Positions 2,481 through 52,993 of a DNA stretch of 64,000 bases are shown one piece after another; the first letter of the stretch is position 1, and each line of letters begins with the position of its first letter. The translations under genes and the position numbers were made by a program. The notes under the pieces are model-generated. The model had not been told where the DNA came from. It made no database searches and was given only the letters and a program-made list of their open reading frames with translations. Source of the stretch: Corynebacterium atrinae. Lineage in GTDB: Bacteria; Actinomycetota; Actinomycetes; Mycobacteriales; Mycobacteriaceae. Location: contig NZ_CP046977.1 of NCBI RefSeq assembly GCF_030408455.1, positions 2,046,001 to 2,110,000 of the forward strand, read 5' to 3'.

Positions 2481-4151
2481 CTAGCGGGTCAGCTTTCGGT
2501 GAGTAACCCGAGACGGGCGAGCAGCGTCAGCGCCGAGGCGTTCGACCTTGTTCTTTTCGTAGTCTCCGAAGTTGCCCTCGAACCAGAACCACTGCCCCTC
2601 AGCCACATTGCCCTCCCAGGCGAGGATGTGCGTACAGGTGCGATCCAGGAACCAGCGGTCGTGGGAAATGACCACGGCACAGCCCGGGAACTTCTGCAGA
2701 GCGTTCTCGAGGGAACCCAGGGTTTCCACGTCAAGGTCGTTGGTCGGCTCATCGAGGAGGATGAGGTTGCCGCCCTGTTTGAGGGTCAGCGCCAGGTTGA
2801 GGCGGTTGCGCTCACCACCGGAGAGAACCTTGGACGGCTTCTGCTGATCCGGGCCCTTGAAACCGAACGCGGAGAGGTACGCGCGAGACGGCATTTCGTT
2901 CTGGCCGACGATGATGTAATCGAGGCCATCGGACACGATCTCCCAGACGGTCTTTTCCGGGTCGAGGTTCTCGCGGTTCTGGTCAACGTAGGACAGCTTG
3001 ACGGTCTCACCCACCTCGACGGCGCCGGCGTCGGGCTGCTCCAGCCCAACGATGGTCTTGAACAGCGTCGACTTACCCACACCGTTCGGGCCGATGACGC
3101 CGACGATGCCGTTGCGCGGCAGGGTGAAGGACAGGTCCTTGATGAGGACGCGGCCGTCGAAGCCCTTCTCCAGCTCCTTGACCTCGACGACCTTGTTGCC
3201 CAGGCGCGGCGGGGTCGGGATCTGGATCTCCTCGAAGTCGAGCTTCTTGTACTTCTCAGCCTCCGCAGCCATCTCCTCGTAGCGCTCAAGGCGAGCCTTG
3301 TTCTTCGACTGGCGAGCCTTCGGGGAAGAACGAACCCAGGCGAGCTCCTCCTTGAGGCGCTTCTGCAGCTTCTGGTCCTTCTTGCCGGACACCTCGAGGC
3401 GCTCGGCCTTCTTCTCCAGGTAGGTGGAGTAGTTACCCTCGTAGGGGTAGAGCTTGCCGCGGTCGACCTCACAGATCCAGCCCGCGACGTGATCGAGGAA
3501 GTAGCGATCGTGGGTCACGGCAAGGACGGCGCCCTTGTAATCGGCGAGGTGCTTCTCTAGCCAGAGGACGGACTCGGCGTCGAGGTGGTTCGTCGGCTCG
3601 TCGAGGAGCAGCAGGTCCGGCTCGGAGAGCAAGAGCTTGGCCAGGGCAACCCGGCGGCGCTCACCACCGGAGAGGTGGGTGACCGGCTCATCCGAAGGCG
3701 GGCAGCGCAGGGCCTCCATGGCCTGCTCAATCTTGGAGTCGACCTCCCACGCATCGGCGGCGTCCAGGTCTTCCTGGAGCTTGCCCATCTCATCCATGAG
3801 CTCATCGGTGTAGTTGGTCGCCATCTCCTCGGCGATCTCCTCGAAGCGCTTCTTCTTCTCGAAGATATCGCCCAGGCCCTCTTCCACGTTCTCGCGGACC
3901 GTCTTCTCTTCGTTGAGCGGAGGCTCCTGCATGAGGATGCCGACGGTGGCACCCGGGTCGAGGAAAGCCTCACCGTTGGAGGGCTGATCCAGGCCGGCCA
4001 TGATCTTGAGGATCGAGGACTTACCGGCACCGTTCGGGCCGACGACACCGATCTTGGCGCCCGGGTAGAAGGCCATCGTGACATTGTCCAGGATGACCTT
4101 GTCACCGATGGCCTTGCGCACGTTCTTCATCGTGTAGATGAATTCGGACAT
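2481..4151 (-). CDS. ettA: Energy-dependent translational throttle protein EttA (ABC-F ATPase)
   Basis: A 556-aa ABC-F protein with two ATP-binding cassettes in one chain and no membrane segments. It is expected to bind the ribosomal E site and gate entry into elongation according to the ATP/ADP ratio. Walker A motifs are GPNGAGKSS (about residue 40) and GPNGVGKST (about 360). ABC signatures are LSGGERRRVAL and LSGGERNRLNL, and both Walker B motifs end LLLDEPTNHLD or ILLDEPTNDLD. The linker is rich in Lys and Glu, as in EttA. The start MSEFIYTMKNVRK matches the family; in-frame codons up to 4193 are probably untranslated. It lies between ssb and the thioesterase on the same strand. Confidence 0.95.
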   Translation of the reverse strand: MSEFIYTMKNVRKAIGDKVILDNVTMAFYPGAKIGVVGPNGAGKSSILKIMAGLDQPSNGEAFLDPGATVGILMQEPPLNEEKTVRENVEEGLGDIFEKKKRFEEIAEEMATNYTDELMDEMGKLQEDLDAADAWEVDSKIEQAMEALRCPPSDEPVTHLSGGERRRVALAKLLLSEPDLLLLDEPTNHLDAESVLWLEKHLADYKGAVLAVTHDRYFLDHVAGWICEVDRGKLYPYEGNYSTYLEKKAERLEVSGKKDQKLQKRLKEELAWVRSSPKARQSKNKARLERYEEMAAEAEKYKKLDFEEIQIPTPPRLGNKVVEVKELEKGFDGRVLIKDLSFTLPRNGIVGVIGPNGVGKSTLFKTIVGLEQPDAGAVEVGETVKLSYVDQNRENLDPEKTVWEIVSDGLDYIIVGQNEMPSRAYLSAFGFKGPDQQKPSKVLSGGERNRLNLALTLKQGGNLILLDEPTNDLDVETLGSLENALQKFPGCAVVISHDRWFLDRTCTHILAWEGNVAEGQWFWFEGNFGDYEKNKVERLGADAARPSRVTHRKLTR

Positions 4152-4196
4152 TGTTCCCCTTATGTGTTGCTTGTTGGCACTGCCGGCACGCAATGC

Positions 4197-4805
4197 TCAG
4201 ACGTCACGCACAAGGGTACATGACCTCCCTCTCCCGGTTAGAAGGGAGGCGTCCCCGTCCCCTCGCCGGTCCCCTCGCCCACTGCAGCCGCCATGGCTGG
4301 GGGGGGCGGGGGCGGCGGGCAACGGCGGCAGCGATTCACTCGGCCGCTCCGCTGGGTCACTTTGATCGGCCACGATTTCGTCGTAGAGCGTGTCCGCCGT
4401 CTGGGGATCGGGAATGCCAACGTTGATGAGGTTCTTCTCCGCGTTATCGACCTTCATGGAACCGATGATGTACTTGTTCAAATCCAAGCCGACGCTGTTG
4501 GCGCGCATGAGAGTCTTGGAGCGCTTTTGGTTGTGCTCGTCTTCCCACTGGTGAGTGATCAACGTGCCGTGAACGATGACGGGCATGCCCTTGGACAGGG
4601 ACTTCTTGCAGTTGATGGCGAGCGGGCCCCAGACATCGACGCTCAAGAACATCTGGTCGATGTCGATCCAGTTGTTGTCCTTATCCTGCACGCGGCGGCT
4701 GGAGGCGATGCGCAGGCTGCACTTTTGGGCGCCGGAGCGCTCGAAGCGTTGGAGCTTGGGATCGTGGGTGAGGTTGCCGATGATGGTGGTGGTCGTATGA
4801 GCCAT
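4197..4805 (-). CDS. ssb: Single-stranded DNA-binding protein (Rv2478c-like), 3' end apparently frameshifted
   Basis: An OB-fold SSB. The N-terminus carries IIGNLTHDPKLQ and, at about residues 45-75, the strand region with WIDIDQMFLSVDVWG and KGMPVIVHG. It is the second SSB type that neighbours ettA in mycobacteria (Rv2478c). As written the protein is 202 aa with an Arg/Gly-rich tail. A run of eight G (4299-4306; C on the coding strand) precedes that tail. With one base fewer the protein would end at 4238 as GTGTPPF. A Pro-Phe end is the hallmark of the SSB tip that recruits partner proteins, so either the run was miscounted or it slips. The ATG at 4805 follows a purine-rich site. Confidence 0.85.
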   Translation of the reverse strand: MAHTTTTIIGNLTHDPKLQRFERSGAQKCSLRIASSRRVQDKDNNWIDIDQMFLSVDVWGPLAINCKKSLSKGMPVIVHGTLITHQWEDEHNQKRSKTLMRANSVGLDLNKYIIGSMKVDNAEKNLINVGIPDPQTADTLYDEIVADQSDPAERPSESLPPLPAAPAPPSHGGCSGRGDRRGDGDASLLTGRGRSCTLVRDV

Positions 4806-4895
4806 GGTGATATCCCCCTGGGTGGTGTTTGTGTTGACCTGGCACCACCCAGGGTGACAGGGCGGGGGGACGGTGACTACCGGGGCGTCGATAAG

Positions 4896-4935
4896 CTGTG
4901 GATAACCGCCTGACAAGGCGGAACGTTATCCACAG
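4896..4935. other. Hairpin carrying two inverted perfect DnaA boxes
   Basis: An 11-bp perfect inverted repeat (CTGTGGATAAC / GTTATCCACAG) encloses a second stem (CCGCC / GGCGG). The outer arms are each an exact consensus DnaA box: TGTGGATAA at 4897-4905 and TTATCCACA at 4926-4934. It lies ten bases downstream of the CopD-CtaG stop codon, so it may simply terminate that transcript, but no T-run follows on either strand. An 11-mer repeat of the region (CGTCGATAAGC) abuts it at 4886-4896. Confidence 0.5.
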
Positions 4936-4944
4936 AAGTAGCCT

Positions 4945-7035
4945 TTAGCGGGCAGAGGGGTTGCCCAACTCATCGTCGGTGACGTATCGTCCGGCGCTCA
5001 TCTGGGCGAGCATCTGGTTATAGGCCTCGAAATCATCATCTTCACCAGCATCAACGCGCCGGTCGTACTCCGTTTCGATGACTCGATCCTCCCGCCGCCA
5101 CTCAAAGAAGAGAATGAGGAACACCAGACCCAGCGGGAACGACCCCGAGGCCCAGCCGATGCCGCCGCCGACGCGCTGATCCTCCAGCAGGTTTAGCTCC
5201 CACGGCAGGCCGAGGGACATGTAGAAGTCGTAGCCCATGATGGTGGTCAGCTGCATGAGGTAGATGCCGGCGAAGAGGTGGAAAGGCATGGAACCCACCA
5301 GCCACGCGAGGCGGATCGCGGCGGGGCGTTGGACGGGCAGCGGGTCCTTGCCCACGACCTCCCAGAAATAGAGGTAGCCGGAGAACAGGAAGACCCAGTT
5401 CATGATGAGGTGGCCGGCGTGCTCGGAGATCATCACCTCATACAACGGAATGATGAGGTAGAGGATGTAGAAGAAGAAGAGGAACTGCGCGAGGTTGACC
5501 ACGGGGTGGCTGAGGAACCTTAGCCAGGGCGACTGCGTGTAGGCGTAGACCATGTCGTGGACACTGGGTTGGCCCGGCTCCCCGGGAGCGTAGGCCCGCA
5601 TGATCAGGGTGAGCGGGCAACCGAGCGCCAAGAAGAGCGGCACAACCATAGACAAAATCATGTGCACGATCATGTGAATGGAGTAGGCGGCACCCATGTT
5701 CATTCCGAGCCCGGAACTCATGGTCTCCAACAGCGTGAAGGTGCCCAGCAGCCAAAACACGGTGCGGGTGGTGCTCCACGATCCGCCCGCACGCCGCACC
5801 CGCCACACTCCATAGAGGTAACCGGCGGTGAGCAAGAGAGCGATGGTGCCAAACATGACATCAAAACGCCACATGGTGAAGACGTTGAAGAAGGTCGGCT
5901 TCTCGTAGAGATCAAAACCGAGCTGGGTCGCCATGTTCGACAGGTTGGGGTTGCGCGGCGGGGGCGGCGGGGTCCGGCCCATCGTGATGGCCACGCCGGT
6001 GATTGCGGCCATGACGATCACCTCGACGATGGCGAAACGCATGAACAGCGCGGGTTTGGTTTCCAACTGCGGGATGGTCAACCTGCGGTGCACCCAACCG
6101 AACAGCCCGAGAACCACCACGCCCACGGTCTTGACGATGAGAATCGTGCCATACGTCGAGGTCAGCCAATCCGACCATTCCACCCGGATCACCGCGTTAA
6201 TGAGGCCCGACACCGCCATGACGATGACGGACATGAATGCCACATTGGAGTAGCGGCGCAGCCCCGTGCCCAGGTACGGGCCAAGGCGACGACCGTGCGC
6301 GATTAGCGCCATGAGCCCGCCGACCCACACCATCATGAAAATGAGGTGCCACAGGTAGGAGTTCGTACCCCAATCATGGTCGCCGCCGGAAGCCGAATGC
6401 CCCTCCATGCCCAGCGGGACGATCATGAGAATCGCGCCAATAAACAGGGGGAGCTGGCTGATCCACGAGCGGAAGAAGAGCCCCGCCACGCCCACGACCA
6501 GGGCAATCCCTGCAACGACCGCCCAGGCGCGGGCAGTCGCGACCTGTTCAATGGCCAAAGACCAACTGGCCACATCGAGGGTTTGTGCAAAGGGGGTACC
6601 GGAGACGTCGGAAAGCACCAGCGGGATCATGAGCAGGGCAACGAGGCCGAAACACAACGCCGACACCGCACCCGTCCGCGCCGCCAGGTGCCCATCAACC
6701 GAGAGCTTCGCCCGCACGAGCTGCGAATTATCGTTGCCCGGGATGGACGGAGCCATATAGAAGGACGAGAACATGAACGAGCCGACCGACAGCGCCGCCA
6801 GCATCCACCCCACCGCCCGGAAAAACGGCAACCCAATCGTCGTGATCCGCCCCGGATCCGGAATGCCCAAGGCAGCGAGCGAACCCGCGAGGAAACCATA
6901 GGAAATCGTCGCGCCCACCGCGCCGGCCACCGCAAAGAAAAGCAGGAAGAGAGGCCAGGTCGGCCGCGCCTTCAAGGCCTTCGTGGCACTGCTTATTTGC
7001 GCCCGCCCGTTGCCCACCACATCCGTATCTGCCAT
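4945..7035 (-). CDS. CopD-CtaG fusion membrane protein (copper handling / cytochrome oxidase assembly)
   Basis: A polytopic membrane protein of 696 aa joining two families. The N-terminal half (to about residue 350) resembles the CopD copper-resistance domain, with many helices and WHLIFMMVWVGGL. The C-terminal half (about 380-660) matches the CtaG/Caa3-assembly family, with YSIHMIVHMILSMVVPLFL, HPVVNLAQFLFFFY and MNWVFLFSGYLYFW. Such fusions are typical of Actinobacteria (Rv0102 type) and are linked to copper supply for cytochrome oxidase. I chose ATG 7035 because the longer open frame would run back through tRNA-Arg. The cytoplasmic C-tail is acidic. It reads away from the tRNA and toward ssb. 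Confidence 0.85.
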   Translation of the reverse strand: MADTDVVGNGRAQISSATKALKARPTWPLFLLFFAVAGAVGATISYGFLAGSLAALGIPDPGRITTIGLPFFRAVGWMLAALSVGSFMFSSFYMAPSIPGNDNSQLVRAKLSVDGHLAARTGAVSALCFGLVALLMIPLVLSDVSGTPFAQTLDVASWSLAIEQVATARAWAVVAGIALVVGVAGLFFRSWISQLPLFIGAILMIVPLGMEGHSASGGDHDWGTNSYLWHLIFMMVWVGGLMALIAHGRRLGPYLGTGLRRYSNVAFMSVIVMAVSGLINAVIRVEWSDWLTSTYGTILIVKTVGVVVLGLFGWVHRRLTIPQLETKPALFMRFAIVEVIVMAAITGVAITMGRTPPPPPRNPNLSNMATQLGFDLYEKPTFFNVFTMWRFDVMFGTIALLLTAGYLYGVWRVRRAGGSWSTTRTVFWLLGTFTLLETMSSGLGMNMGAAYSIHMIVHMILSMVVPLFLALGCPLTLIMRAYAPGEPGQPSVHDMVYAYTQSPWLRFLSHPVVNLAQFLFFFYILYLIIPLYEVMISEHAGHLIMNWVFLFSGYLYFWEVVGKDPLPVQRPAAIRLAWLVGSMPFHLFAGIYLMQLTTIMGYDFYMSLGLPWELNLLEDQRVGGGIGWASGSFPLGLVFLILFFEWRREDRVIETEYDRRVDAGEDDDFEAYNQMLAQMSAGRYVTDDELGNPSAR

Positions 7036-40341: not shown

Positions 40342-40434
40342 CACTTCTCCATGTGGCTTCTGTCTCACCTGTTGCTTTTAGAAAAAGGCTGTCACATAAT
40401 GGGTGGCGATACCAGCCCCTGTGGGTTGGGCCAA

Positions 40435-40461
40435 GGATTGTAACCCTCACGGGGCAAGACC
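40435..40461 (+). promoter_or_regulatory. RAT site for a BglG/LicT-type antiterminator
   Basis: The leader of bglF contains GGATTGTAACCCTCACGGGG followed by CAAGACC, matching the ribonucleic antiterminator pattern (GGATTGT-Ac...GGCA-AACC). It overlaps the left arm of the terminator at 40457, so binding of the antiterminator would prevent the terminator from forming. Confidence 0.85.
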
Positions 40462-40509
40462 TGAGCAGCAGACCATGCGTCGAGCATGGACTGCAGCTCG
40501 GGTCTTTTT
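40457..40509 (+). terminator. Conditional terminator in the bglF leader
   Basis: AGACCTGAGC (40457-40466) pairs with GCTCGGGTCT (40496-40505) with one wobble, and T residues continue to 40509. The intervening part can also fold (CCATGC/GCATGG). It shares five bases with the RAT site. Confidence 0.85.
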
Positions 40510-40550
40510 GCGTTCCAGGACCAGTTCTAGACCCGAAAGAGAAGGACGAC

Positions 40551-42446
40551 ATGGCAACGAAGACCGACTTCCGGCCCCTGGCCGACGCAGTCGTGACTGC
40601 GCTCGGCGGACCGGACAACATCCGCTCCGTGACGCATTGCGCAACCCGGCTGCGCTTTAAGATCAAGGATGCCGCCAAGGTGGATGACGCGGGCGTCGAA
40701 AAGCAAGAAGGCGTGATCACGCTGGTGAAGGCCGGCGGGCAGCACCAAGTGGTGATCGGCAACGATGTTGCGCTCGCCTATGAGGCGATCGTTGGCATCG
40801 ATGGCATGGCCGCTAAGGCCGTCAAGGAGGCCGCCGACGACGAGGACGAGGGTCCGCAAGGCAGCCTGTTCAACCGGCTCATCGACCTCATTTCCTCCCT
40901 GTTCAGCCCGATCCTGTGGTGCTTGTCCGGCATTGCCCTGCTCAAGGCCTTCCTCGCTATGTCGGTGCAATTCGGGTGGATCGACGCCGAGGGAACGAAT
41001 TACCTCGTACTCAACGCGATGGCCGATGCGGTGTTTTACTTCCTACCGCTGTACCTCGCGCTGACTGCCGCCCGGAAATTCAAGGTCAACGACTTCATCG
41101 CTCTCTCCGTAGTGGCGCCCCTGGTCTACCCCACCGTCGTCGCGCTCGGCGGCGTGGAGGAACCCGTCACCCTCTTCGGCCTGCCGCTGGTCACGATGAG
41201 CTACGCCTCCTCGGTGATCCCCGCCATCCTCGCGGTGTGGCTGACCGGCTATCTGCAGCGGTGGCTGGAGAAGGTGCTGCCCGGCGCGATCCGCACCTTC
41301 GGCACCCCGCTGTTGTGCGTGCTCATCATGGTCCCGCTGGTGTTGTTCACCGTCGGCCCCATCACGATGGTCGCCTCCAACGGCATCTCCAGCGGCATCG
41401 CCTGGCTTTTCGAGGCCGCCCCCTGGCTCGCCGGCGCTCTCATGGGCGGGTTCTGGCAGGTCCTCGTCATGTTCGGTCTGCATTGGGGCTTCGTGCCGGT
41501 GTTCCTCAATGACATCGCCACGCAGGGCTACAGCGCCATCATGGCGGTGCTCATGGCCCCCGTCCTGGCGCAAGGCGCGGCCGCCGCTGCCGTCTTCCTC
41601 CGCTCCAAGGTGGCTGCCCGCCGAAAGGTCGCCGGCCCGGCTACGGTCTCCGCGATCCTCGCTGGTGTCACCGAGCCGGTCGTCTACGGCGTCAACCTGC
41701 CGCTGAAAATCCCCTTCTACCTCGGCTGCGTCGGCGGTGCGATCGGTGGCGCCATCATCGGCATGGGCGGCGTCGCCTTCAACACCTTCGTCTTCCCCTC
41801 CGTCCTCGCCACGCCCGCCATGCTGGGCCGCGGCAACCTCATCCTGGCCTTCATCGGCATCGCCGTGGCCATGATCGTGGCGTTCGTCGGGACGTGGCTC
41901 GCGATGCCGCGGTTGGAGAAGCAGGAGGCAGCGGCTGTTCCCGACAGCGCGAATGGTGCCGACAGCACGACTATCGACGTCCCCCTCGGCACCACTGCCA
42001 TTCTCCTCCCCGTCCGCGGCGAGGTCATCCCCCTCGACCAGGTCAACGACAAGGTCTTCGCCTCCGGGGCGATGGGCACCGGGCTGGCGGTGCTGCCTGC
42101 CGACGGCGACGTCATCGCCCCCATTTCCGGCACCGTCATCGCGGCACCGAAATCCGGCCACGCCTACGGCATCAAATCCCCCGAGGGCATCGAGGTCCTC
42201 GTCCATGTCGGCCTGGACACAGTCGCCATGAAGGGCGAGGGATTCACCCCACACGTGGTCAAGGGCGACGTCGTTAAGGCGGGGCAACCCCTGGTCACCG
42301 CTGACCTGGCGGCCATCGCGGCCGCCGGGTACGAAGCCACGACCCTGCTGGTGGTTACGAACTCGGGCAAGCTGGCGGAAGTCCGCAGTGTTGCGCCCAA
42401 CGTCTCTTCCCTCGCCGGCGAGGCCGGCATCCTGGTCACCCCCTAA
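40551..42446 (+). CDS. bglF: Beta-glucoside PTS permease, EIIBCA
   Basis: Imports and phosphorylates aryl-beta-glucosides. It is 631 aa in the order IIB-IIC-IIA. The IIB domain (1-85) has the phosphorylated Cys in SVTHCATRLRF (Cys30). IIC (about 105-470) is polytopic with GVTEPVVYGVNLPLK. IIA (about 490-631) has the phospho-acceptor His in VLVHVGLDTVAMKGEGF (about 552) and GTVIAAPKSGHAYGIKS. ATG 40551 follows GAAGGA. The leader carries a RAT and terminator, as in the C. glutamicum R bglF-bglA-bglG operon. bglA follows after 27 bases. Confidence 0.93.
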   Translation: MATKTDFRPLADAVVTALGGPDNIRSVTHCATRLRFKIKDAAKVDDAGVEKQEGVITLVKAGGQHQVVIGNDVALAYEAIVGIDGMAAKAVKEAADDEDEGPQGSLFNRLIDLISSLFSPILWCLSGIALLKAFLAMSVQFGWIDAEGTNYLVLNAMADAVFYFLPLYLALTAARKFKVNDFIALSVVAPLVYPTVVALGGVEEPVTLFGLPLVTMSYASSVIPAILAVWLTGYLQRWLEKVLPGAIRTFGTPLLCVLIMVPLVLFTVGPITMVASNGISSGIAWLFEAAPWLAGALMGGFWQVLVMFGLHWGFVPVFLNDIATQGYSAIMAVLMAPVLAQGAAAAAVFLRSKVAARRKVAGPATVSAILAGVTEPVVYGVNLPLKIPFYLGCVGGAIGGAIIGMGGVAFNTFVFPSVLATPAMLGRGNLILAFIGIAVAMIVAFVGTWLAMPRLEKQEAAAVPDSANGADSTTIDVPLGTTAILLPVRGEVIPLDQVNDKVFASGAMGTGLAVLPADGDVIAPISGTVIAAPKSGHAYGIKSPEGIEVLVHVGLDTVAMKGEGFTPHVVKGDVVKAGQPLVTADLAAIAAAGYEATTLLVVTNSGKLAEVRSVAPNVSSLAGEAGILVTP

Positions 42447-43868
<1,422 letters not shown>

Positions 43869-44007: not shown

Positions 44008-44061
44008 GGTGCTGTTGCAAAGTTCGGGCGACAGGAAGACCTGCGTGAAATAATCACAGCC

Positions 44062-44497
44062 ATGGGCATCTTCTCCGGTCGTCATTTCCCCCGTGACATC
44101 ATCCTGTGGGCGGTCCGGTGGTACTGCCGCTACGGGCTCAGCTACCGCGATCTGGAAGAAATGATGACCGAACGCGGCGTACCGGTCGAGCACACCACGA
44201 TTCTCACCGCTGGGTCCAGAAATACGCCCCTGAGCTGGACAAGCAAACACGGTGGTACCGGCAGGTACCTGACTGGCAGGCCAGTTCCTGGCGAGTGGAT
44301 GAGACCTATATCCGGGTCGGCGGCAGGTGGTGCTACCTCTATCGGGCGATCACCGCCGGTGGCCAGACCCTGGACTTTTACCTCTCTCCGAAGCGGAACG
44401 TGGCCGCAGCGAAGCGTTTCCTGGCCAAGGCTCTCAGATTCAATGCGTCAGCCGGGTATCCCAGAGTGATCAACACCGATAAAGCACCCTCCCTAGC
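44062..44497 (+). pseudogene. IS6-family transposase, 5' part
   Basis: The start FSGRHFPRDIILWAVRWYCR is typical of IS6 transposases. Near 44205 the frame shifts (ATTCTCACCGC where ATTCACCGC is expected), then continues as WVQKYAPELDKQ and VDETYIRVGG with the first catalytic Asp. It stops at INTDKAPSLA, where the IS481-family element inserted; the second Asp is in NTDKA. Confidence 0.9.
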
Positions 44498-44539
44498 TGT
44501 ACTGACCGGGGACGTTGATCGAGCGGCGGTGACTGTATA

Positions 44540-44561
44540 CGATACGGACCGTGCCGTATCG
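44540..44561. promoter_or_regulatory. Operator palindrome over the tetR start codon
   Basis: CGATACGG and CCGTATCG form a perfect 8-bp inverted repeat around ACCGTG, and the GTG start codon of the TetR gene is inside the spacer. A TATACGAT -10-like box overlaps the left arm. This is the expected layout for autorepression of a leaderless transcript. Confidence 0.7.
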
Positions 44562-45252
44562 AAATAATGAAACCGCGCCTGTGCGGGGCCGCCCGCGCGA
44601 CCCGGACCTCGACCGTCGGATCACTGCTGCCGTACTCGAGGTTCTGGGTGAGCAGGGGTTCGAGGCAGTCACGTTCGAGTCCGTTGCCCGCCGATGCCAG
44701 ACCTCCAAGGCATCGCTGTACCGGCGCTGGCCCTCGAAGCGGGACATGGTGCTGGCCGCGGTGAAGGATGGCCCCGCCCGGCAGGCATCGACACCGATTC
44801 CCGTGGGGGCATGCCTGCGCGACGATCTCCTCGCGCTCGTGCGGCGGCTCGCCGAGACCATGCGCTCGGCAGCCACCGGGACCGCGTTCATGCTGTTGCA
44901 GGCCGGCCTGGAAGATCCCGACCTGTGCGACGCCATCGAGGAAGCAACGGGTCCGACTGGCGCCCGGTTGCCACAGCATGTGATCGATGCCGCCGTCGCA
45001 CGCGGGGAGCTACCTGCCGGGACCAACGCCTTCGCGTACGAGGAGATCGTCGGCTCGGTGCTGCTTCTTCGGCGGGCCAACGGGCTCGCCGTGACCGACG
45101 AATACCTGCAAGCCCTCATCGATGCGCTGGTGATCCCTGCCCTAACGGTCTCGCACCGTTACTCCGGGCTGCCTGCCGGGATCTTCTCCGGCCATCCCAC
45201 CACCCAACTCGCCAGCATCCCCGCTGCCGAAACGTCCCAGGAGTTCTCATGA
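44551..45252 (+). CDS. TetR-family regulator, passenger of the IS481 element
   Basis: A 233-aa TetR protein. The helix-turn-helix is at about residues 22-65 (VTFESVARRCQTSKASLYRRW). The C-terminal ligand domain, with LLALVRRLAETM and ALIDALVIPAL, resembles the TetR_C_11 type. The GTG start lies inside a palindrome. The stop overlaps the hydrolase start by four bases, so the regulator and hydrolase form a coupled pair. The inducer is probably the hydrolase substrate, which is inference. Confidence 0.88.
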   Translation: MPYRNNETAPVRGRPRDPDLDRRITAAVLEVLGEQGFEAVTFESVARRCQTSKASLYRRWPSKRDMVLAAVKDGPARQASTPIPVGACLRDDLLALVRRLAETMRSAATGTAFMLLQAGLEDPDLCDAIEEATGPTGARLPQHVIDAAVARGELPAGTNAFAYEEIVGSVLLLRRANGLAVTDEYLQALIDALVIPALTVSHRYSGLPAGIFSGHPTTQLASIPAAETSQEFS

Positions 45253-46145
45253 CCAGCTTCACCATCGACGATTTCACCTACCGCCGCATCGCAGGCGCCG
45301 ACGGCGTCCACCTCAACGTCGCCGTTGGGGGCGAGGGCCCGGCCGTGGTTCTGCTTCACGGGTTCCCGCAGACGCACTACATGTGGCGTCACGTCGCCCG
45401 ACTGCTCGCCCAGCAGTACACGGTGATCGTCCCGGACCTGCGCGGCTACGGGGACAGTGACAAGCCGGCCGCCCAGGACGTCAACACGTATTCCAAGCGC
45501 ACCATGGGCAACGACATCATCACTGTCGTCCGCGAGCTCGGTTTCGACAGCTTCGGCCTCGTCGGCCACGACCGCGGCGCGCTCGTCGCCGTCCGCGCTG
45601 GCCTCGATCACCCCGAGTCCATCGCCTTCCTCGGCATCCTCGACGTTCTGCCCACCCTCGACACCTGGTCGGTTCTGCAGGGCGTGAACGCCAAGGTGGC
45701 CTGGCACCTGTACCTCATGGCCCAGCCCGCTGGGATGCCCGAGAAGATGATCGCTGCAGTCGCCCACGAGTTCTACTCCTCGTTCCTCGACGCCTGGGAC
45801 CCCGCTGGGAATACGTTCACGCCTTCCGAGCGGGACTACTACGTCCAGGCATCGATCGCGTCCACGGACTCGATCGTGGCCGACTACCGAGCGACCGCGG
45901 GAATCGACCTCGACATGGACGCTGCCGACCGCGAGCGAGGCGTCCAGCTGTCCATGCCGGTAGCCGCCATCTCCCAGGACTGGGGCTCTCAGCTCGGTTT
46001 CGACGCCTCCGCGCTGTGGCGCGCCTGGGCGCCCGACTTCACCTACCAGGCGACCACGAGCGGCCACTTCATGGCCGAACAGAACCCCCAGGAGATCGCC
46101 GAATTCGTCCAGGCCCTCGCGCACCGGGCCGACGACCAGCACTGA
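45249..46145 (+). CDS. Alpha/beta hydrolase, haloacid dehalogenase / epoxide hydrolase type
   Basis: A 298-aa hydrolase. The oxyanion motif is LLHGFPQTHYMW, then DLRGYGDSDKP, and the nucleophile elbow GHDRG carries Asp instead of Ser, as in fluoroacetate dehalogenases and epoxide hydrolases. The late His is in TSGHFMAEQ. The segment AWHLYLMAQPAGMPEKMI aligns with the dehalogenase cap, but the Trp that follows the His in fluoroacetate dehalogenase appears to be Leu, and the second active-site Arg is not evident. Either a dehalogenase with altered substrate or an epoxide hydrolase is possible. It is the second passenger of the IS481 element. Confidence 0.85.
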   Translation: MTSFTIDDFTYRRIAGADGVHLNVAVGGEGPAVVLLHGFPQTHYMWRHVARLLAQQYTVIVPDLRGYGDSDKPAAQDVNTYSKRTMGNDIITVVRELGFDSFGLVGHDRGALVAVRAGLDHPESIAFLGILDVLPTLDTWSVLQGVNAKVAWHLYLMAQPAGMPEKMIAAVAHEFYSSFLDAWDPAGNTFTPSERDYYVQASIASTDSIVADYRATAGIDLDMDAADRERGVQLSMPVAAISQDWGSQLGFDASALWRAWAPDFTYQATTSGHFMAEQNPQEIAEFVQALAHRADDQH

Positions 46146-46211
46146 CCACCGCCAACCCGCTGAGGGGCTCATCCGCGCCGGATGAGCCCCTCAGCGCATC
46201 CAAGGACACCG

Positions 46212-47198
46212 ATGTCTCACCAAAACGCCGCCCTCACTCCCCGCCATCGCCTGAAGGTCGCCAAACTCGTCGTCGAGGACGGGTGGCCGATCAGCGAGGT
46301 CGCCGCCCGTTTCCAGGTCTCCTGGCCGACCGTGAAGCGGTGGGTCGACCGCTACCTCGTCGGCGAGTCCATGTACGACCGCACGTCGCGCCCGAAGACG
46401 TCGCCGAACGAGACCCCGAAGACGGTGACGAAGCGGTGCGTCAGCCTGCGAATGCGATTGAGGGAAGGGCCAGTTCAGCTGGCAGCCCGACTCGGCATCG
46501 CCCCTTCGACGGTGCATCGAATCCTCACGACGGCACGCCTGAACCGGCTGTCTTACGTCGACCGGGCCACGGGCGAACCGATCCGCCGGTACGAGCACCC
46601 CCACCCCGGATCCCTCGTACATGTCGACGTGAAGAAGATCGGGAACATCCCTGATGGGGGCGGGTGGCGCTACGTCGGCCGCAAACAGGGCGAGAAGAAC
46701 CGAGCCGCCACCCCAGGCAAGCCACGCAATCAGTACGGCGGCCCGAAGCTCGGGTACGCGTTCGTCCACACGGTCATCGATGACCACTCGCGTGTCGCGT
46801 ACTCCGAGGTCCACGACGACGAGACCGCCATCACCGCCGCCGCCGTCCTGCACCGCGCTGTCGGCTGGTTCGCCGAGCGCGGCGTCACCATCGAACGCAT
46901 CTTGTCGGACAACGGCGGCGCGTACCGGTCCCATCTGTGGCGTGACACCTGTCAGGCGTTGTCGATCACGCCGAAGAGGACCCGCCCGTACCGCCCCCAG
47001 ACGAACGGGAAGGTGGAGCGCTTCCACCGGACCATGGCCGACGGGTGGGCCTACGCTCGCTGCTACACCAGCGAGCACGAACGCCGCGACGCACTGCCCG
47101 ACTGGCTCCACCACTACAACGAGGTGCGTCCGCACACCGCGTGCGCCAACCAGCCGCCCTTCTCACGATTGATCAACGTCCCCGGTCAGTACACCTAG
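46212..47198 (+). CDS. IS481-family transposase
   Basis: A 328-aa DDE transposase. The N-terminal helix-turn-helix is GWPISEVAARFQVSWPTVKRW. The catalytic residues are in LVHVDVKKI (Asp), ILSDNGGAY (Asp) and NGKVERFHRT (Glu). The C-terminus LINVPGQYT is encoded by the right terminal repeat, and the stop codon TAG lies in the target duplication just outside the element, so each new insertion would alter the protein end. ATG 46212 matches the family start MSHQNAALTP. It looks intact and may be active. Confidence 0.95.
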   Translation: MSHQNAALTPRHRLKVAKLVVEDGWPISEVAARFQVSWPTVKRWVDRYLVGESMYDRTSRPKTSPNETPKTVTKRCVSLRMRLREGPVQLAARLGIAPSTVHRILTTARLNRLSYVDRATGEPIRRYEHPHPGSLVHVDVKKIGNIPDGGGWRYVGRKQGEKNRAATPGKPRNQYGGPKLGYAFVHTVIDDHSRVAYSEVHDDETAITAAAVLHRAVGWFAERGVTIERILSDNGGAYRSHLWRDTCQALSITPKRTRPYRPQTNGKVERFHRTMADGWAYARCYTSEHERRDALPDWLHHYNEVRPHTACANQPPFSRLINVPGQYT

Positions 47199-47199
47199 C

Positions 47200-47478
47200 C
47201 AGGGCAATCGCCGAGTTGAAGTCAGAGGGAATCTGCCCGCCAACAGTGGAACACCGGCAGGTGAAATACCTCAACAACATCCTGGAAGGCGACCATGGTC
47301 GGCTGAAGCGGATCTTCGGGCCGAAAGGCGCGTTTAAGAACCGGACATCTGCATATCGGACGTTGAAAGGGATGGAGGCGATGCACTCGATTCACGGAAA
47401 GGGCAAGGCACGATGTTTGCCTACGGGCACCCGAACCCGGACGCGGTGATCGTCAACCGGGTCTTCGAGACGGCCTAA
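47200..47478 (+). pseudogene. IS6-family transposase, 3' part
   Basis: Continues the split transposase with RAIAELKSEGICPPTVEHRQ and VKYLNNILEGDHGRLKR, including the catalytic Glu region. A further frameshift near 47412 separates HSIHGKGK from the typical end MFAYGHPNPDAVIVNRVF. The transposase cannot be functional. Confidence 0.88.
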
Positions 47479-47556
47479 CAACGCCCACACGCAGCGGCCA
47501 TCAGGGAATGAGAAACTGAGTCTTCGCTGCTCTCCCCCCAACTTTGCAACAGCACC

Positions 47557-48227
47557 CGTTGAAGTGGGTAACCCCAATCGAAGGGCATCGGCGCTTCGAC
47601 GCTTCCGATTTCGTTCGAGGTCAGCAGGACACCGTCTACATCCTCAGCAAGGAAGGTGCCGACAACGCTGCAGCCCTGACGACAGCCCTCACCGCGGCGA
47701 TAACTACTGCAGCAGAGCAGCACGGAGAACAGTGTGGTGGCCGGCTCCCAGTGCCGCTCGTGGCCGCGCTCGATGAGGCCGCCAATGTCGTGAAGTGGCC
47801 AGAACTTCCGTCACTCTACAGTCACTACGGCTCGCGCGGAATCATCCTGATGACGATCCTGCAGTCGTACACGCAGGGCGTAGGAGTGTGGGGGGAGGAA
47901 GGCATGGAAGCGATGTGGTCAGCGGCTTCGATCTTGCTTTACGGCGGCGGTGTTCGCGACGACAAGATGCTGCAGAAGCTTGAATCTCTTATCGGCGAGG
48001 TCGAGGTCTTCGAGTCGTCGACCAGCCGTACCGGCGACGGCCCCCGCTCGGTAAGCACACAGCGGCGGGAGAAGAAGATCCTCACTGTCTCCGAGCTTGC
48101 CAGCCTGCAGCAGTGGAGGGCGCTCGTGCTCGCATCAAAACGCCGACCCATGGTCGCGGAGATGGAGCCCTTCTGGGTCCGGCCTTGGCCTGAGAGAATC
48201 CGTGCGCAGCTGGGAGTCACAGCATGA
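47557..48227 (+). pseudogene. Type IV coupling protein (TraD/TraG/VirD4-like), 5'-truncated
   Basis: About 220 codons of the C-terminal part of a conjugative coupling protein. It keeps VYILSKEGADNAAALTTALT and the TraM-recognition region PLVAALDEAANVVKWPELPS with RGIILMTILQSYTQGVGVWG. The N-terminal membrane segments and Walker A are missing, cut off by the IS6 right end. Such proteins pump the relaxase-DNA complex into the secretion channel. Genes downstream on the same strand overlap it. The fragment proves that this DNA belonged to a plasmid or integrative conjugative element. Confidence 0.88.
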
Positions 48228-48574
48228 GTGATCAAGTTCCAGAGACACAGTTCCTGGACGTCTACCAGTTCGTCGATGAGCTCATTGCTCCGCTCTACGG
48301 CGTCACCGAAGCCCGGATCAATGAGGTCCGCTGGGCGAAAACATGGTGGGCCCACGCCGACGTCGTCCTCCGCCTGGATAGTTTGTGGCGCCGCTACGAG
48401 CAGTTGCGAATTTCGGAACCTGCGACATTCCTGGAGACTTTCCTGCGGTCCCACGCGGACTACCACATGCGCTACCTCATGCGCGACGACGGTGTGATGG
48501 CGGACTGCCGTCGGCAGGACATGCCCACTCTGCCGCTCCCCGTTGATCCAATCCCCGAAGGTGGAGAGGAGTGA
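48224..48574 (+). CDS. DUF4913 family protein
   Basis: A 116-aa soluble protein with the DUF4913 pattern: FVDELIAPLYG near the N-terminus, then WAKTWWAHADVVLRLDSLW and a C-terminal SHADYHMRYLM. The family is common on actinobacterial conjugative elements beside coupling-protein genes; its function is unknown. Its ATG overlaps the coupling-protein stop (ATGA), so it was part of the transfer operon. Confidence 0.8.
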   Translation: MSDQVPETQFLDVYQFVDELIAPLYGVTEARINEVRWAKTWWAHADVVLRLDSLWRRYEQLRISEPATFLETFLRSHADYHMRYLMRDDGVMADCRRQDMPTLPLPVDPIPEGGEE

Positions 48575-48576
48575 TC

Positions 48577-48717
48577 ATGCCGACCCCGCTCCACCGGCAA
48601 TGGGAACTCCACGAGCCGGCCCTTGAAGAACTGACCAGCAGACTGCACGCCCTTTCCCAGGAAGCGGGAGACCTTGATCGCGGCGAGCACATAAAGAGAA
48701 ACGGATCACCCTCATGA
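48577..48717 (+). CDS. Small coupled ORF, 46 aa, in the transfer operon
   Basis: A short gene between two overlapping neighbours. ATG 48577 lies behind GGAGAGGAG; a GTG at 48571 overlaps the DUF4913 stop and is an alternative. The product is polar and helical (LHEPALEELTSRLHALSQEA). The stop overlaps the ATG of the next gene. Position and ribosome site make it likely to be real. Function unknown. Confidence 0.6.
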   Translation: MPTPLHRQWELHEPALEELTSRLHALSQEAGDLDRGEHIKRNGSPS

Positions 48718-49343
48718 CCCCCACGCCCTCATCCAGATCAGAGATCGACCGCTCCCTAGCCCGGGCTCTTCGACTGATCCGGCAGGCAGCAGGATCATCG
48801 CGCCGGCACACTCTGCGCCAATCGACCAGAGCTGCCGGTCCGGCGACGTATCGACACCTCACACCGGGGCAGTTGGCATCAGCGGCCTTAGCCGGCCTGG
48901 TCGTGGGCCAGTGGGCAGAAAGGGAAGGTGCCGACAGATTCTTCGTCGCAGAGCTGCAGCGGCGTGGGATGACTGAATCGTGGGCTGCCTGGGACAACGA
49001 CGCCGCCACCGTCAGCGACACTCCGCTGGGCGAGTTTGAGACGAGACTGAGCCAGCTCGGAACACTCACCCACCACAGCCTCGATAATCTGTGCGAAACG
49101 CTGGATAGAGTGGCGTTCGGTGATGATGGTAGAACCCCTGGGGCACTATCGCCGGCGGAAGTGATCGAGGACATGGAGGCCACCGGAATGCCGGAAGAAG
49201 CCATCGACGCTTACGCTGCAGCTGTCGGCACCTCCGCTACGTCCCTTAGCCAGGACCTGGCTGTCCAGGGAGAGTCTCCTACCCCCTTGCTCGCTGCGGA
49301 GATGCCTACAGAAGATGAGGCGGCAGACGAAGCTGCGCTGTAG
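48714..49343 (+). CDS. Hypothetical protein of the conjugative element, 209 aa
   Basis: A soluble, mostly helical protein with no recognised family. Features are a basic N-terminal third (LARALRLIRQ, SSRRHTLRQS), a central GQLASAALAGLVVGQWAERE and a very acidic C-terminus ending in repeated Glu and Ala. It overlaps the small ORF upstream by four bases and ends nine bases from the convergent relaxase gene. It may be a relaxosome or structural accessory, which is inference from position. Confidence 0.65.
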   Translation: MTPTPSSRSEIDRSLARALRLIRQAAGSSRRHTLRQSTRAAGPATYRHLTPGQLASAALAGLVVGQWAEREGADRFFVAELQRRGMTESWAAWDNDAATVSDTPLGEFETRLSQLGTLTHHSLDNLCETLDRVAFGDDGRTPGALSPAEVIEDMEATGMPEEAIDAYAAAVGTSATSLSQDLAVQGESPTPLLAAEMPTEDEAADEAAL

Positions 49344-49351
49344 CCAGGGGG

Positions 49352-52300
49352 CTACTGCTCGAGAGAGTCCTCTCGGCCCTCCTCGGCAGAAGGAGCCACC
49401 GGATCGCTGATAGAGGGTCCGGTGGTCTTCTGGTCCTGCGGTCGTGCGGGCGAGACGAGATCGAGAAGATCCCGGCCGGGGTCAGGGCGCGGTGTCGTGA
49501 CGCGGGAACCGCGGGACGGAACGGGGCGCGCTCCCATCACAGTGTCCACGAGACGCCGACCCGCCACCGCGAGGTCGACAGCCTGATTTTCCTCTGGGCT
49601 GATGAGCAAGTCGCGAGTACGTAGCAACCAGTCGCGCAGCTCCGGGTCACACCCCCGCGACGCGGGGGGGACGGCCGGGACGTCAGAAGACGTGGACAGC
49701 TCAGCTGCCTGGTCGCGCAGCCGGTAAGAAATGACGGCACCGATGTTCTCGGCGTCCCCGAGATTGGTGACTGCTGCGGTCATTAAGTCTCGGGGATCCA
49801 CACCGGCAGCAAGGAGTCTGTGCCACGTGGCAACGACGGTGGAAAGACCTCCCTGCTCCGAGAAACGTGCAGCCTCATCCACGGAGAGCCGGTCAAGGAA
49901 GCTGTCCAGGTACGTGGCGGTGAACTGGCCGGACGCGAGCTCCACCCCATAGGTGTACAGCTGCCCGAGACGCTCCAGGCTTCTGGCCTGGACGACTTCA
50001 TCGAGGTGGACCTCCGTGGCCGTGCGCTGACGGTGGTCTCGGGTGATCGCCCTGGAGAGAACCTCAGCGGCATCCAATCCTGCGGCATTGCCGGAGCCGA
50101 GCCAGTGGGCCTCCTCAGCTTCTTCGTCCAGTCGAGCGTCGGTGACCGCCCAGATCCGGTTCTCCTTCTTTCCCCGGGTCAGTGCCACGTACAGAGTGGA
50201 CCTGTCCGTGGAGTCGTCGATGATCGCGTGAGCGACGTCGACAGTGGCGCCCTGGGCGCGGTGGACTGTTGAGGCATATCCGAGGTGGACGTTCTGGGAG
50301 ACGTATTCAGCAGGCAGCGAAACGCAGGCCCCGCTGGCGGGATCACGCGCCAGCAGACCGCCGTCGCGTCGAATTTCCGCAATGGTGAACATCTGTCCGT
50401 TGATCAGGCGTTCGCCGTCTGGGAGCCGCTCGTTCTTTCGGCAGATGATGGTGTCTCCGACGCCTGCGACATCACCGCGGGACAGGGTGAGCTCATCGGT
50501 AATGCTGACAACTCCTTGGCGAATCCGCTGATCGCGGATCATCTCATTAAGGGCGTCTACGTCGGAATTTGTCGGAGCTACTAGGAGAACCCGCCGACCC
50601 AGAGCTACATCAGCCAGGTACGCCTCTACGGCGTCGGTAAGCATCTCAGTGCGGGTTCCACCAGTAATCCAGTCCCTGTCCTCATAAAACTTGAGTGCCG
50701 CCAGGTTGCCGGCTCGAAGGTTCAGCGAAGCCTCTGCCTGCTCAGCGTCGTTACCGTGAGCAAACCTCATGACGTCAGTGAGTTCTGCGGGATCACTTGC
50801 CTTGCAGAGAGCGGCAAAGAGTCCACCAGCACCTACAGCGTCGAGCTGATGCGGATCACCGATGAGCCGGAGGACTGCACCTGAGGCCTCCGCAATTTCA
50901 GTGAGCGCAGCGAGATTCTCGGTCGTGGCCATGCCGGCCTCGTCGACCAGAAGCATGTCGCCGGCCCGGAGTTGAATGGGCAGCGCGCCCAAGTCCCGTG
51001 CATTCTTCTCGGGGTTCTTTCCCCTCCAGGTATGTGTTAAGTGGTCGACAGTCGAGGCGTCCACGCCGATCTCTTCACCGAGGATCTGGGCGGCCGCCGC
51101 TGAGGGAGCGAGACCGACGACGCGTCGTCCCTCGGCCTGCCAGACGTCCCTGACGATCCGCATGGAGGTCGTCTTTCCGGTGCCGGCCGGTCCGACCCCG
51201 ACGCCGACCAGAGAGCCGCACTGAAGAAGGTGGCGAGACAGTTCGGCCTGTCCGGTGTTCAGAGACCAGCCATGCTCGCGGGTGTGCTCCTCTAGGGCAG
51301 CATTAATCACTCTGCTCGAGGAGAACACCGCCGTCGGCTCTGTGACTGCCGACAGCACCCGCGCCTCCGCGTGCAGAATCGCTGCCGTCGAGTACTTCTC
51401 GGAACCGATGTGTCGGTCCACGCCGCTGGCCGAAGCGTCACCATCGGTCCGGAGCTGCAGCGGGAGATCAGGCGATTCTGAGGGACTGAGATCTACCACC
51501 AAATCGTTAACAATCGTCTCGGTAAGGAGCTGATGAGCGCGAGCCACCTCGTCCGAATTCTCAAACCGAAAACCCTTGAGGGCAGTCCCCACTGCCGCAG
51601 TGATGTGATGACGGGAGAAGTAAGAGCGCCGAGCAATCACCGATTCCAAGATCTGCCCTCCCCGCTTCCGGAGCTCATGGCGGACTTGACCGTCGTCAGC
51701 CCCGAAGAAGTAAGGACGGCGATCCTGTGGGGATGTTCCGACCATCTCCTTCAGCTTCTCGATGAGGTCCTCCCCATCACTCACTGTCCGCGCTTCCTGT
51801 GCCCAAGTGGCTCGAAGATCAGCAAGAGATTCCGCAGGCTTCTTGGCATCGCGGGTCTCCAGGATTGCCGCCTGCCACAGCTGCTTGACCGTCTGATGGT
51901 CTGGCTGGTGGCCATGTTTGGCAACGTAAGCCGACAGCATTGTCTCGTACACCGGACGTGCCAAGGTGCGCCGCTTAGAGAAAACGTCGATCAACTTCTG
52001 AGGGACACCAGCAACTTCCCACACCGGAGCCTTGTCCCGGCCACGAGACGAAGCCTCGAAAGAGATTCCCATCTTGCGAGTGAGGATCTCTTGCATGACG
52101 GAGTCATAGCGCGCAGAGAGGGTCTGATGGTTCATGAATAGCGGCCTCCCGTCAAGTGCTCGCCACCTTCCGTCCGGGCCTTGAACCTTGTTTGAGATCA
52201 GAACGTGCGAGTGAAGGTCAGGATCTCCACTGCGGGTGTCGAAATGAGTGAACTCTGCAGCGAGCAGTCCTCGTGAGCGCACCTGCGCCAGTCCACCCGT

Positions 52301-52993
52301 ACCCTGACGCGTTCGCACGACGTTATCTTCGGCCCATGCGAGAACCTCCGCGACCGCCTCGTGGTGGCAGGCGGCGATCCGAGACGCCGTTCGCTCATCG
52401 CTTAAGGCCCACAGAACAGACACGGACTTGGCCGGTGAGAAGGTCAGATCGTAGCCTGCCACAGCCTGCTTGACCTCAGCTCGCTGGAGGTTGACCCAGG
52501 CGACGACGTCGCGTGCGGGAGCGTTGGTGTATCCGGTCGCCTCAACGTAGAAGGGCCGGCCAACGCTGACGGCCAGCTCAGAGCGCTCCGCATCCAAGGG
52601 AAGGCGGTTTTGCTCGCGAAGAAACGAACTCTCGGCTGATCTCAGAGCGTTCAGTACCGGGATGTTGTTGGTGTACGAGGGGAACTTTCCACCGAGCTGG
52701 CAGTCCTTCAAACTTGTCCCTTCGAGGAGCTTTGAATCGGTGTCGGGGTGCAAGCCCAGGCCGTAAAGCGCGGCCATCTGATCCGCTTCAACTATCTGCC
52801 CTGTCGTCGCTGACGATGACTCCAGCGCCGCCAGTCCCCGTCCCAGCCAGCGCCCCGGAGGGGTGCCTTTGGCGGCGTAGTAGGAAGCGAGCTTTCCTGT
52901 TTCCGTCGACTGGTCGTAGGCATCATTTGTCGCCACCGAGCGCAGCAGGTACTGGTACCCAGCACCTGCGTGTACCGCCCGAAAGCTCATCAT
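49352..52993 (-). CDS. traA: MobF-family relaxase-helicase (TraA-like)
   Basis: A 1213-aa conjugative relaxase. The N-terminal TrwC-like domain (about 1-300) carries catalytic tyrosines near residue 13-26 and the HUH metal site in FTHFDTRSGDPDLHSHV (about 240-257). The C-terminal two thirds is a RecD/TraI-like helicase with Walker A GPAGTGKTT (about 604) and DEAGMATTENL. It nicks oriT, binds the 5' end and unwinds the strand for transfer. It is full-length. It diverges from the gene at 53117, and the 120 bases between contain an oriT candidate. Confidence 0.93.
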   Translation of the reverse strand: MMSFRAVHAGAGYQYLLRSVATNDAYDQSTETGKLASYYAAKGTPPGRWLGRGLAALESSSATTGQIVEADQMAALYGLGLHPDTDSKLLEGTSLKDCQLGGKFPSYTNNIPVLNALRSAESSFLREQNRLPLDAERSELAVSVGRPFYVEATGYTNAPARDVVAWVNLQRAEVKQAVAGYDLTFSPAKSVSVLWALSDERTASRIAACHHEAVAEVLAWAEDNVVRTRQGTGGLAQVRSRGLLAAEFTHFDTRSGDPDLHSHVLISNKVQGPDGRWRALDGRPLFMNHQTLSARYDSVMQEILTRKMGISFEASSRGRDKAPVWEVAGVPQKLIDVFSKRRTLARPVYETMLSAYVAKHGHQPDHQTVKQLWQAAILETRDAKKPAESLADLRATWAQEARTVSDGEDLIEKLKEMVGTSPQDRRPYFFGADDGQVRHELRKRGGQILESVIARRSYFSRHHITAAVGTALKGFRFENSDEVARAHQLLTETIVNDLVVDLSPSESPDLPLQLRTDGDASASGVDRHIGSEKYSTAAILHAEARVLSAVTEPTAVFSSSRVINAALEEHTREHGWSLNTGQAELSRHLLQCGSLVGVGVGPAGTGKTTSMRIVRDVWQAEGRRVVGLAPSAAAAQILGEEIGVDASTVDHLTHTWRGKNPEKNARDLGALPIQLRAGDMLLVDEAGMATTENLAALTEIAEASGAVLRLIGDPHQLDAVGAGGLFAALCKASDPAELTDVMRFAHGNDAEQAEASLNLRAGNLAALKFYEDRDWITGGTRTEMLTDAVEAYLADVALGRRVLLVAPTNSDVDALNEMIRDQRIRQGVVSITDELTLSRGDVAGVGDTIICRKNERLPDGERLINGQMFTIAEIRRDGGLLARDPASGACVSLPAEYVSQNVHLGYASTVHRAQGATVDVAHAIIDDSTDRSTLYVALTRGKKENRIWAVTDARLDEEAEEAHWLGSGNAAGLDAAEVLSRAITRDHRQRTATEVHLDEVVQARSLERLGQLYTYGVELASGQFTATYLDSFLDRLSVDEAARFSEQGGLSTVVATWHRLLAAGVDPRDLMTAAVTNLGDAENIGAVISYRLRDQAAELSTSSDVPAVPPASRGCDPELRDWLLRTRDLLISPEENQAVDLAVAGRRLVDTVMGARPVPSRGSRVTTPRPDPGRDLLDLVSPARPQDQKTTGPSISDPVAPSAEEGREDSLEQ

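Follow-up and report, generated by a model that had tools for sequence, protein, structure and literature searches.

A TetR-hydrolase pair between the ends of an IS481-family insertion sequence in Corynebacterium atrinae

Introduction

Insertion sequences of the IS481 family with genes other than the transposase have already been described, and the accounts given here follow excerpts of the cited papers. ISArsp12, found on the Arthrobacter plasmid pA2H1, is an IS481 element with passengers (PMC6305408), and ISPfr21 of Propionibacterium freudenreichii, which the same paper assigns to IS481, has a TetR-family regulator and one further gene (PMC2909200). In the case of TnRErm46/ISRe46 from Rhodococcus equi, transposition is evidenced by many insertion sites (PMC6794481). 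Insertion sequences with passenger genes between their ends form the general class of transporter IS, or tIS (PMC9330008).

In our study, an element of 2696 bp (44498-47193) with all three genes on the + strand has been analysed in Corynebacterium atrinae; the window means the whole stretch of 64,000 nucleotides that was analysed. As the cargo-bearing IS481 elements ISPfr21, ISArsp12 and TnRErm46 are in print, this element belongs to a known transporter-IS kind. Among open-licence full texts screened by title and beginning of the abstract, with ISfinder outside the scope, none was found to describe a TetR-hydrolase IS481 element or an exchange of cargo in this branch.

Results

The perfect 23-bp repeats, the CCTAGC duplication and the certainty of the boundaries, all claimed in the original prediction, were confirmed (Table 1). 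The repeats start with TGT as is typical of the IS481 family, and the 6-bp duplication has the NCTAGN form also seen in TnRErm46. The insertion target is an IS6-family gene, and its empty site is found in an IS6 copy on the Corynebacterium faecale plasmid pCFAEC45971b (L135). CCTAGC occurs there once between flanks matching those of the element (94 bases with 2 mismatches on the left, 94 bases with 0 mismatches on the right), and hence the boundaries are exact. Removal of the element had also been said to restore the IS6 frame exactly. The phase is indeed continuous across the insertion, the left piece ending at IS6 residue 144 and the right piece beginning there, but one further frame break is present within each half, so the insertion site is exact and the IS6 gene is otherwise not intact.

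Table 1. Features of the element and their positions in the window
Feature	Position	Strand	Basis
Left target-duplication copy, CCTAGC	44492..44497	.	Sequence; CCTAGC single in empty site L135
Left terminal inverted repeat, 23 bp	44498..44520	+	TGTACTGACCGGGGACGTTGATC
-10-like TACGAT (44538-44543) and palindrome (44539-44561) over the tetR start	44538..44561	+	Pattern in relatives
TetR-family regulator, 233 aa, GTG start	44551..45252	+	PF00440 and PF16859 above cut-off
Alpha/beta hydrolase, 298 aa	45249..46145	+	Pfam; Asp108-Asp132-His273; Leu112, Leu154
Perfect 18-bp hairpin between cargo and transposase gene	46158..46196	+	Sequence
IS481-family DDE transposase	46212..47198	+	Conserved start ATG 46212; open frame from 46182
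Right terminal inverted repeat, 23 bp	47171..47193	-	Exact reverse complement of TGTACTGACCGGGGACGTTGATC
Right target-duplication copy, CCTAGC	47194..47199	.	Sequence

A composite transposon was considered and rejected: two IS copies flanking the cargo were not found, one transposase and one end pair are present, and the IS6 sequences on the outside belong to a single IS6 that was split in two. No 8-bp duplication was found at the outer ends of this IS6 (44008-47556 of the window), and 14 further places in the own genome resemble its right part. To the left of the IS6 lies a beta-glucoside PTS and family-1 glycosidase pair (40353-43868), and to the right are conjugation genes (47544-52993), where the C-terminal part of a VirD4-like coupling protein adjoins a MobF relaxase. 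The position of the IS6 between glycoside and conjugation genes looks like an IS6-made junction. One full copy of the element is present in the own genome (2.81 Mb, 3 contigs). Plasmid records matching the two flanking regions were from Corynebacterium in 26/32 and 22/27 cases, the matches listed falling in the IS6 part, and 0 of 190 plasmid records matching the element cover 80% of it.

The transposase had been called an apparently intact IS481 DDE enzyme, which is upheld by a score of 335 bits against the IS481 model NF033577 (cut-off 224) and by the residues D149, D243 and E279 (counted from 46182), where 35 residues separate D243 from E279. Its stop codon TAG (47196-47198) falls inside the right target duplication. 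The hairpin upstream of the gene is a possible transcriptional insulator; it is without a T run and is missing or weak in many relatives.

The two genes ahead of the hairpin were also correctly foreseen as a coupled TetR-hydrolase pair inside the ends, since they overlap, the hydrolase ATG overlapping the TetR stop codon, and their Pfam assignments agree. The regulator combines the TetR_N helix-turn-helix (PF00440) with the C-terminal ligand domain TetR_C_11 (PF16859), placing it in the TetR family. A natural fusion of the two proteins in one 499-aa chain was also observed (P0115).

A hydrolase scan of genome contigs gave 52 loci, or 53 with the window, and a TetR match is present in 44/53. 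The palindrome over the tetR start is probably the TetR operator. Its strict pattern is found in 38/53 loci, once per matching locus, with 37 matches in the 441,710 bases outside the window, and the site of the element is the sole operator-like one in its own genome at up to 3 mismatches. The corresponding sites of L012 and L062, the complete relatives described below, fail the strict pattern and carry a variant recognized by eye. The palindrome pattern supports an autoregulation of TetR in cis, in which the binding of TetR would be expected at this site. The tetR start is possibly leaderless, and the inner TTGATC of the left repeat (44515-44520) may serve as the -35 of a tetR promoter. The left end as a fixed -35 element is a weak candidate, since the spacing to the -10 is 17 bp in four loci and 21 bp in two others. 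The conserved gene neighbourhood of the pair gave no clue to the substrate, because shadow open reading frames in GC-rich DNA dominated the neighbourhood clusters.

The best solved-structure matches of the hydrolase are fluoroacetate dehalogenases (E 4e-58), and Asp108, Asp132 and His273 align with the triad positions of dehalogenases, giving the Asp-His-Asp arrangement. D108 is present in 53/53 loci, D132 and H273 in 52/53 each, and every one of the three in 120/120 nearest proteins, which are the best 120 of 7989 matches to the hydrolase. R109, corresponding to the first Arg, is retained in 53/53 loci and 120/120 nearest proteins, H153 in 52/53 and 120/120, and Y213 in 50/53 and 118/120. In the excerpted part of a review, Arg111, Arg114, His155, Trp156 and Tyr219 are listed among the important residues of fluoroacetate dehalogenase (PMC5485738). 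The pair of arginines (111 and 114 in the Rhodopseudomonas enzyme) is reduced here to R109, with Leu112 at the second position (53/53 loci, 120/120 nearest proteins), and the His-Trp-Tyr halide site keeps H153 and Y213 with Leu154 in place of Trp (51/53 and 119/120). Compared with fluoroacetate dehalogenases and related hydrolases (PDB 9c9f, 1y37, 4bat), the hydrolase is thus alike in fold family, triad positions, Asp-Arg motif and pocket His and Tyr, whereas Leu112 and Leu154 stand for the second Arg and Trp. It forms a distinct subfamily, as Leu stands at these two positions in nearly all loci and nearest proteins. PDB relatives of the hydrolase include chains named epoxide hydrolase, and a neutral substrate such as an epoxide is our guess.

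Mobilicoccus caccae (L012) and Agilicoccus flavus (L062) each have a complete relative with both ends, TetR, hydrolase and transposase in the same gene order. The two agree with each other at 99-100% per 150-bp segment and lie at different sites with exact but different duplications, GCTAGT and CCTAGG. The pair is therefore bounded by these ends elsewhere, which the original prediction had named as one of the points on which it could fail. Three further loci (L015, L028, L048) have the left end and transposase fragments in the same order as the element, and two (L021, L023) have the left end without transposase. Nine of the 53 loci, having no TetR match, were left out of the operon tree and 44 kept. 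A left-end remnant (up to 5 mismatches in 20; 200 shuffles per locus) stands beside the operon in 7/41 loci other than the three complete elements and was detected in none of the remaining 34, and the remnants are scattered over three separate parts of the TetR-hydrolase tree. As 34/44 loci are without an end remnant by the test used, an IS origin is not demonstrable for most operon homologues. Decay of the transposase, with the operon kept, is seen in several hosts. At L011 in Phycicoccus endophyticus (about 3277-4946), two decayed ends were seen to flank a TetR-hydrolase pair, and no transposase lies in the interval.

The hydrolase cluster at 90% identity holds 11 sequences on 35 contigs, own included. 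A search of 242 genomes of the genus, including the own one and with two candidates per genome, gave among the matches listed only hits in the transposase part (query 1706-2696) for all those above 100 bits elsewhere, and only short weak matches for the cargo part.

The TGTACTGACC-type IS481 elements are here called the branch. Their end pattern (up to 2 mismatches) is present in 57/301 family genomes and 38/394 class genomes, against 4 and 2 genomes, respectively, for a reversed control pattern. The branch sample was purposive, being collected from end pairs, genus transposase matches, plasmid matches and the hydrolase scan. Its 56 rows represent 55 elements, L126 being a duplicate of L075, and Kocuria L143, with no left end within the scan, was excluded from the count. 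In this purposive sample the 55 distinct rows with two ends include 38 with an exact duplication, of NCTAGN form in 38/38. Among these 38, 31 are 1.9-6.0 kb long and 7 are transposase-only (1.09-1.12 kb). Cargo was identified in 29 of the 31 larger elements by Pfam, record annotation or tblastn from representatives, the exceptions being L120, where none was found, and a Dermacoccus element with a weak piece only; a regulator was identified in 24 of the 31. No cargo match was obtained for the 14 rows of at most 1118 bp. Cargo is thus common in this branch as purposively sampled. The original prediction held that most IS481 elements contain only the transposase and that a unit of this kind is unusual. 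The former fails for this branch in our sample (31 larger against 7 transposase-only), and the latter is not supported, because IS481 elements with regulator-plus-partner cargo are in print and outnumber the transposase-only ones in the branch sample.

The cargo is of many types. TetR is joined with hydrolase in the element under study, L012 and L062, and with DUF4865 in L107 and L108. WYL regulators occur with hydrolase (L071, L075), glyoxalase (L096 and C. jeikeium pA505) or RidA (Dietzia, Gordonia, L078), and AraC with glyoxalase (L099, L100). Other combinations are MerR-TipAS with DUF2268 (L069 and kin), Rrf2 with an NAD(P)H-binding protein (Micrococcus), ArsR with a permease (Arthrobacter), and LysR with EamA, mostly with an NAD-binding protein (L065, L066, L103, L110). 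HxlR is found in L080 and L119, ABC-2 efflux in L063 and kin and in L072, and ABC with MFS in L092 and L093, which are 4.1-kb branch elements encoding an ABC ATPase with two nucleotide-binding domains and an MFS transporter. L107 and L108 are identical 2615-bp elements with a broken transposase in two genomes, and their flanks are unequal but the same in both (CCTAGC, CCTAAC). In Dermacoccus abyssi CP043032 (L136/L142), matching ends enclose a stretch of 6.0 kb that has TCTAGA at either side.

For the transposase tree, rows were kept if a single aligned stretch exceeded 200 residues, which left 39. One clade (97/86) is made up of eight transposase-only rows, and two other clades comprise 12 rows (97/99) and 17 rows (98/96), 29 together. 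The left end was found in 25/29 of the latter, and 25/25 of these are at least 1.85 kb long. The transposase-only L074 and L121 branch apart.

One clear case, to which no rate is attached, indicates that cargo and transposase have been reassorted. L063 and L094 have an ABC-2 cargo in common and show 24 differences over the first 2100 bp; from nt 2105 onwards, about 89 nt into the transposase gene, the divergence is about 20%. In its transposase part L063 instead resembles L080 (97.4% identity). Upstream of this part, L080 has no match to the ABC-2 cargo of L063 and encodes an HxlR regulator, its left end lying beyond the stretch reached. The flanks of L063 are unequal (GCTAGC, ACTAGG), which might fit a hybrid origin. 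L065 (423-3157) and L066 (360-3093) hold the LysR/EamA/NAD-binding cargo in two genomes. They are probably non-autonomous satellites moved in trans, because they are near-identical (97-100% per segment compared), have both ends with duplications that are exact but not the same, and retain only the final 22 or so codons of the transposase.

Discussion

The element is very probably an autonomous transporter IS of the IS481 family with the TetR-hydrolase pair as cargo. The single IS481 unit envisaged in the original prediction, with a regulator-hydrolase pair inside its ends, agrees with the ends, duplication, empty site and relatives. This reading is further backed by the IS481 model and DDE residues, the seven remnant loci, the operator pattern in 38/53 loci, the P0115 fusion and the triad in 120/120 proteins (best of 7989). 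Counted against it are the single copy, the lack of a strong cargo match among the matches listed for the 242 genus genomes, the 34/44 operon loci without end remnant, the strict operator pattern missed by L012 and L062, the varying -35/-10 spacing, and the hairpin that has no T run and is missing or weak in many relatives.

In the proposed mechanism, the transposase would act on both ends and insert the element in full into CTAG targets, which would provide the UAG stop of its gene. TetR would bind the palindrome that spans the -10 and start codon of its own gene, giving an autoregulated operon, until a small molecule releases it from the operator. The co-translated hydrolase would then attack that molecule or a relative of it via Asp108, His273 and Asp132, and the hairpin may shield the transposase gene from transcription of the cargo.

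An assembly chimera or chance arrangement is scarcely credible. The element is single-copy in its own genome and no other strong cargo match was listed in the genus, but an exact empty site exists in a relative, the TetR-hydrolase-transposase unit recurs in two other genera, and the hydrolase cluster spans 35 contigs, on which grounds this explanation, raised in the original prediction as a unit existing only in this assembly, was rejected. Passive trapping, in which two separate ends would have captured the operon a single time without its moving as a unit, would suit the 34/44 operon loci without a detectable end; it is highly improbable in view of the two near-identical units L012 and L062, which occupy different target sites in two genera with exact duplications.

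It is quite unlikely that the cargo serves the element, with TetR mainly controlling the transposase and the hydrolase incidental. Cargo and transposase do lie on one strand as one unit, and regulators are frequent among the cargo of related elements. However, the sole operator-like site precedes tetR, a strong hairpin parts the cargo from the transposase, the operon is still found at loci whose transposase and ends have decayed, and 14/14 transposase-length rows are without the cargo tested, 10 of them having ends and a transposase of about 1.1 kb with no regulator. A slightly better chance, though still a poor one, is given to the view that the hydrolase is a haloacid dehalogenase of the fluoroacetate type, which would make the unit a mobile cassette for dehalogenation. 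Its best solved-structure matches point that way and some sources name its relatives haloacetate dehalogenase, but leucine stands throughout the nearest proteins, with one exception at the Trp position, for two residues that the excerpted review lists as important. The halogenated acids proposed originally as substrates are disfavoured for the same reason, the second Arg and Trp of the fluoroacetate dehalogenase pocket being Leu here; the epoxides named alongside them may be substrates.

Beyond the single transporter IS, the chances are about even that this actinobacterial IS481 branch, with ends TGTACTGACCGG... and a CTAG target, is a general vehicle for interchangeable regulator-effector modules. 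The modules would occupy a single slot, bordered by the left end and by the transposase gene, recombination near the transposase start would reassort them with different transposases, and they would sometimes be moved as transposase-less satellites. The TetR-hydrolase operon would have spread through Actinomycetes partly by this vehicle and been kept while the element decayed. Small single-IS units whose records say no more than 'IS481 family transposase' can carry entire modules for detoxification or efflux together with their regulation, and the end sequence TGTACTGACCGG... gives a handle for finding them. If the exchange of cargo is general, the branch provides an uncomplicated natural model of how insertion sequences acquire, exchange and pass on host genes.

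In comparison with the known systems, ISArsp12 (L141; 2615 bp) is likewise an IS481 element with a regulator and partner before the transposase. It has the near-identical end TGTACTGACCGGACACGTTG, the CTAG duplication CCTAGA and a transposase 76% identical to that of our element, but its passengers are an ArsR regulator and a permease. ISPfr21, compared by its excerpted description only, is similar as an IS481-group IS with a TetR-family regulator and one gene, and differs in that the partner is described as a protein of unknown function. TnRErm46, in the excerpted account, has an IS481 transposase, TetR in its cargo, the NCTAGN duplication and a target-supplied transposase stop in common with our element, whereas its 6.9-kb length, resistance cargo and end sequence are different. 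The tIS, as excerpted, is a class and not a specific element, defined by passengers that transposition does not need and that lie between the ends of one IS; here TetR and hydrolase lie inside the ends, and in relatives of about 1.1 kb the ends enclose a transposase but no passengers. What our purposive survey adds is that the carriage of regulator-effector modules is common in the branch and that a swap has occurred in one clear case.
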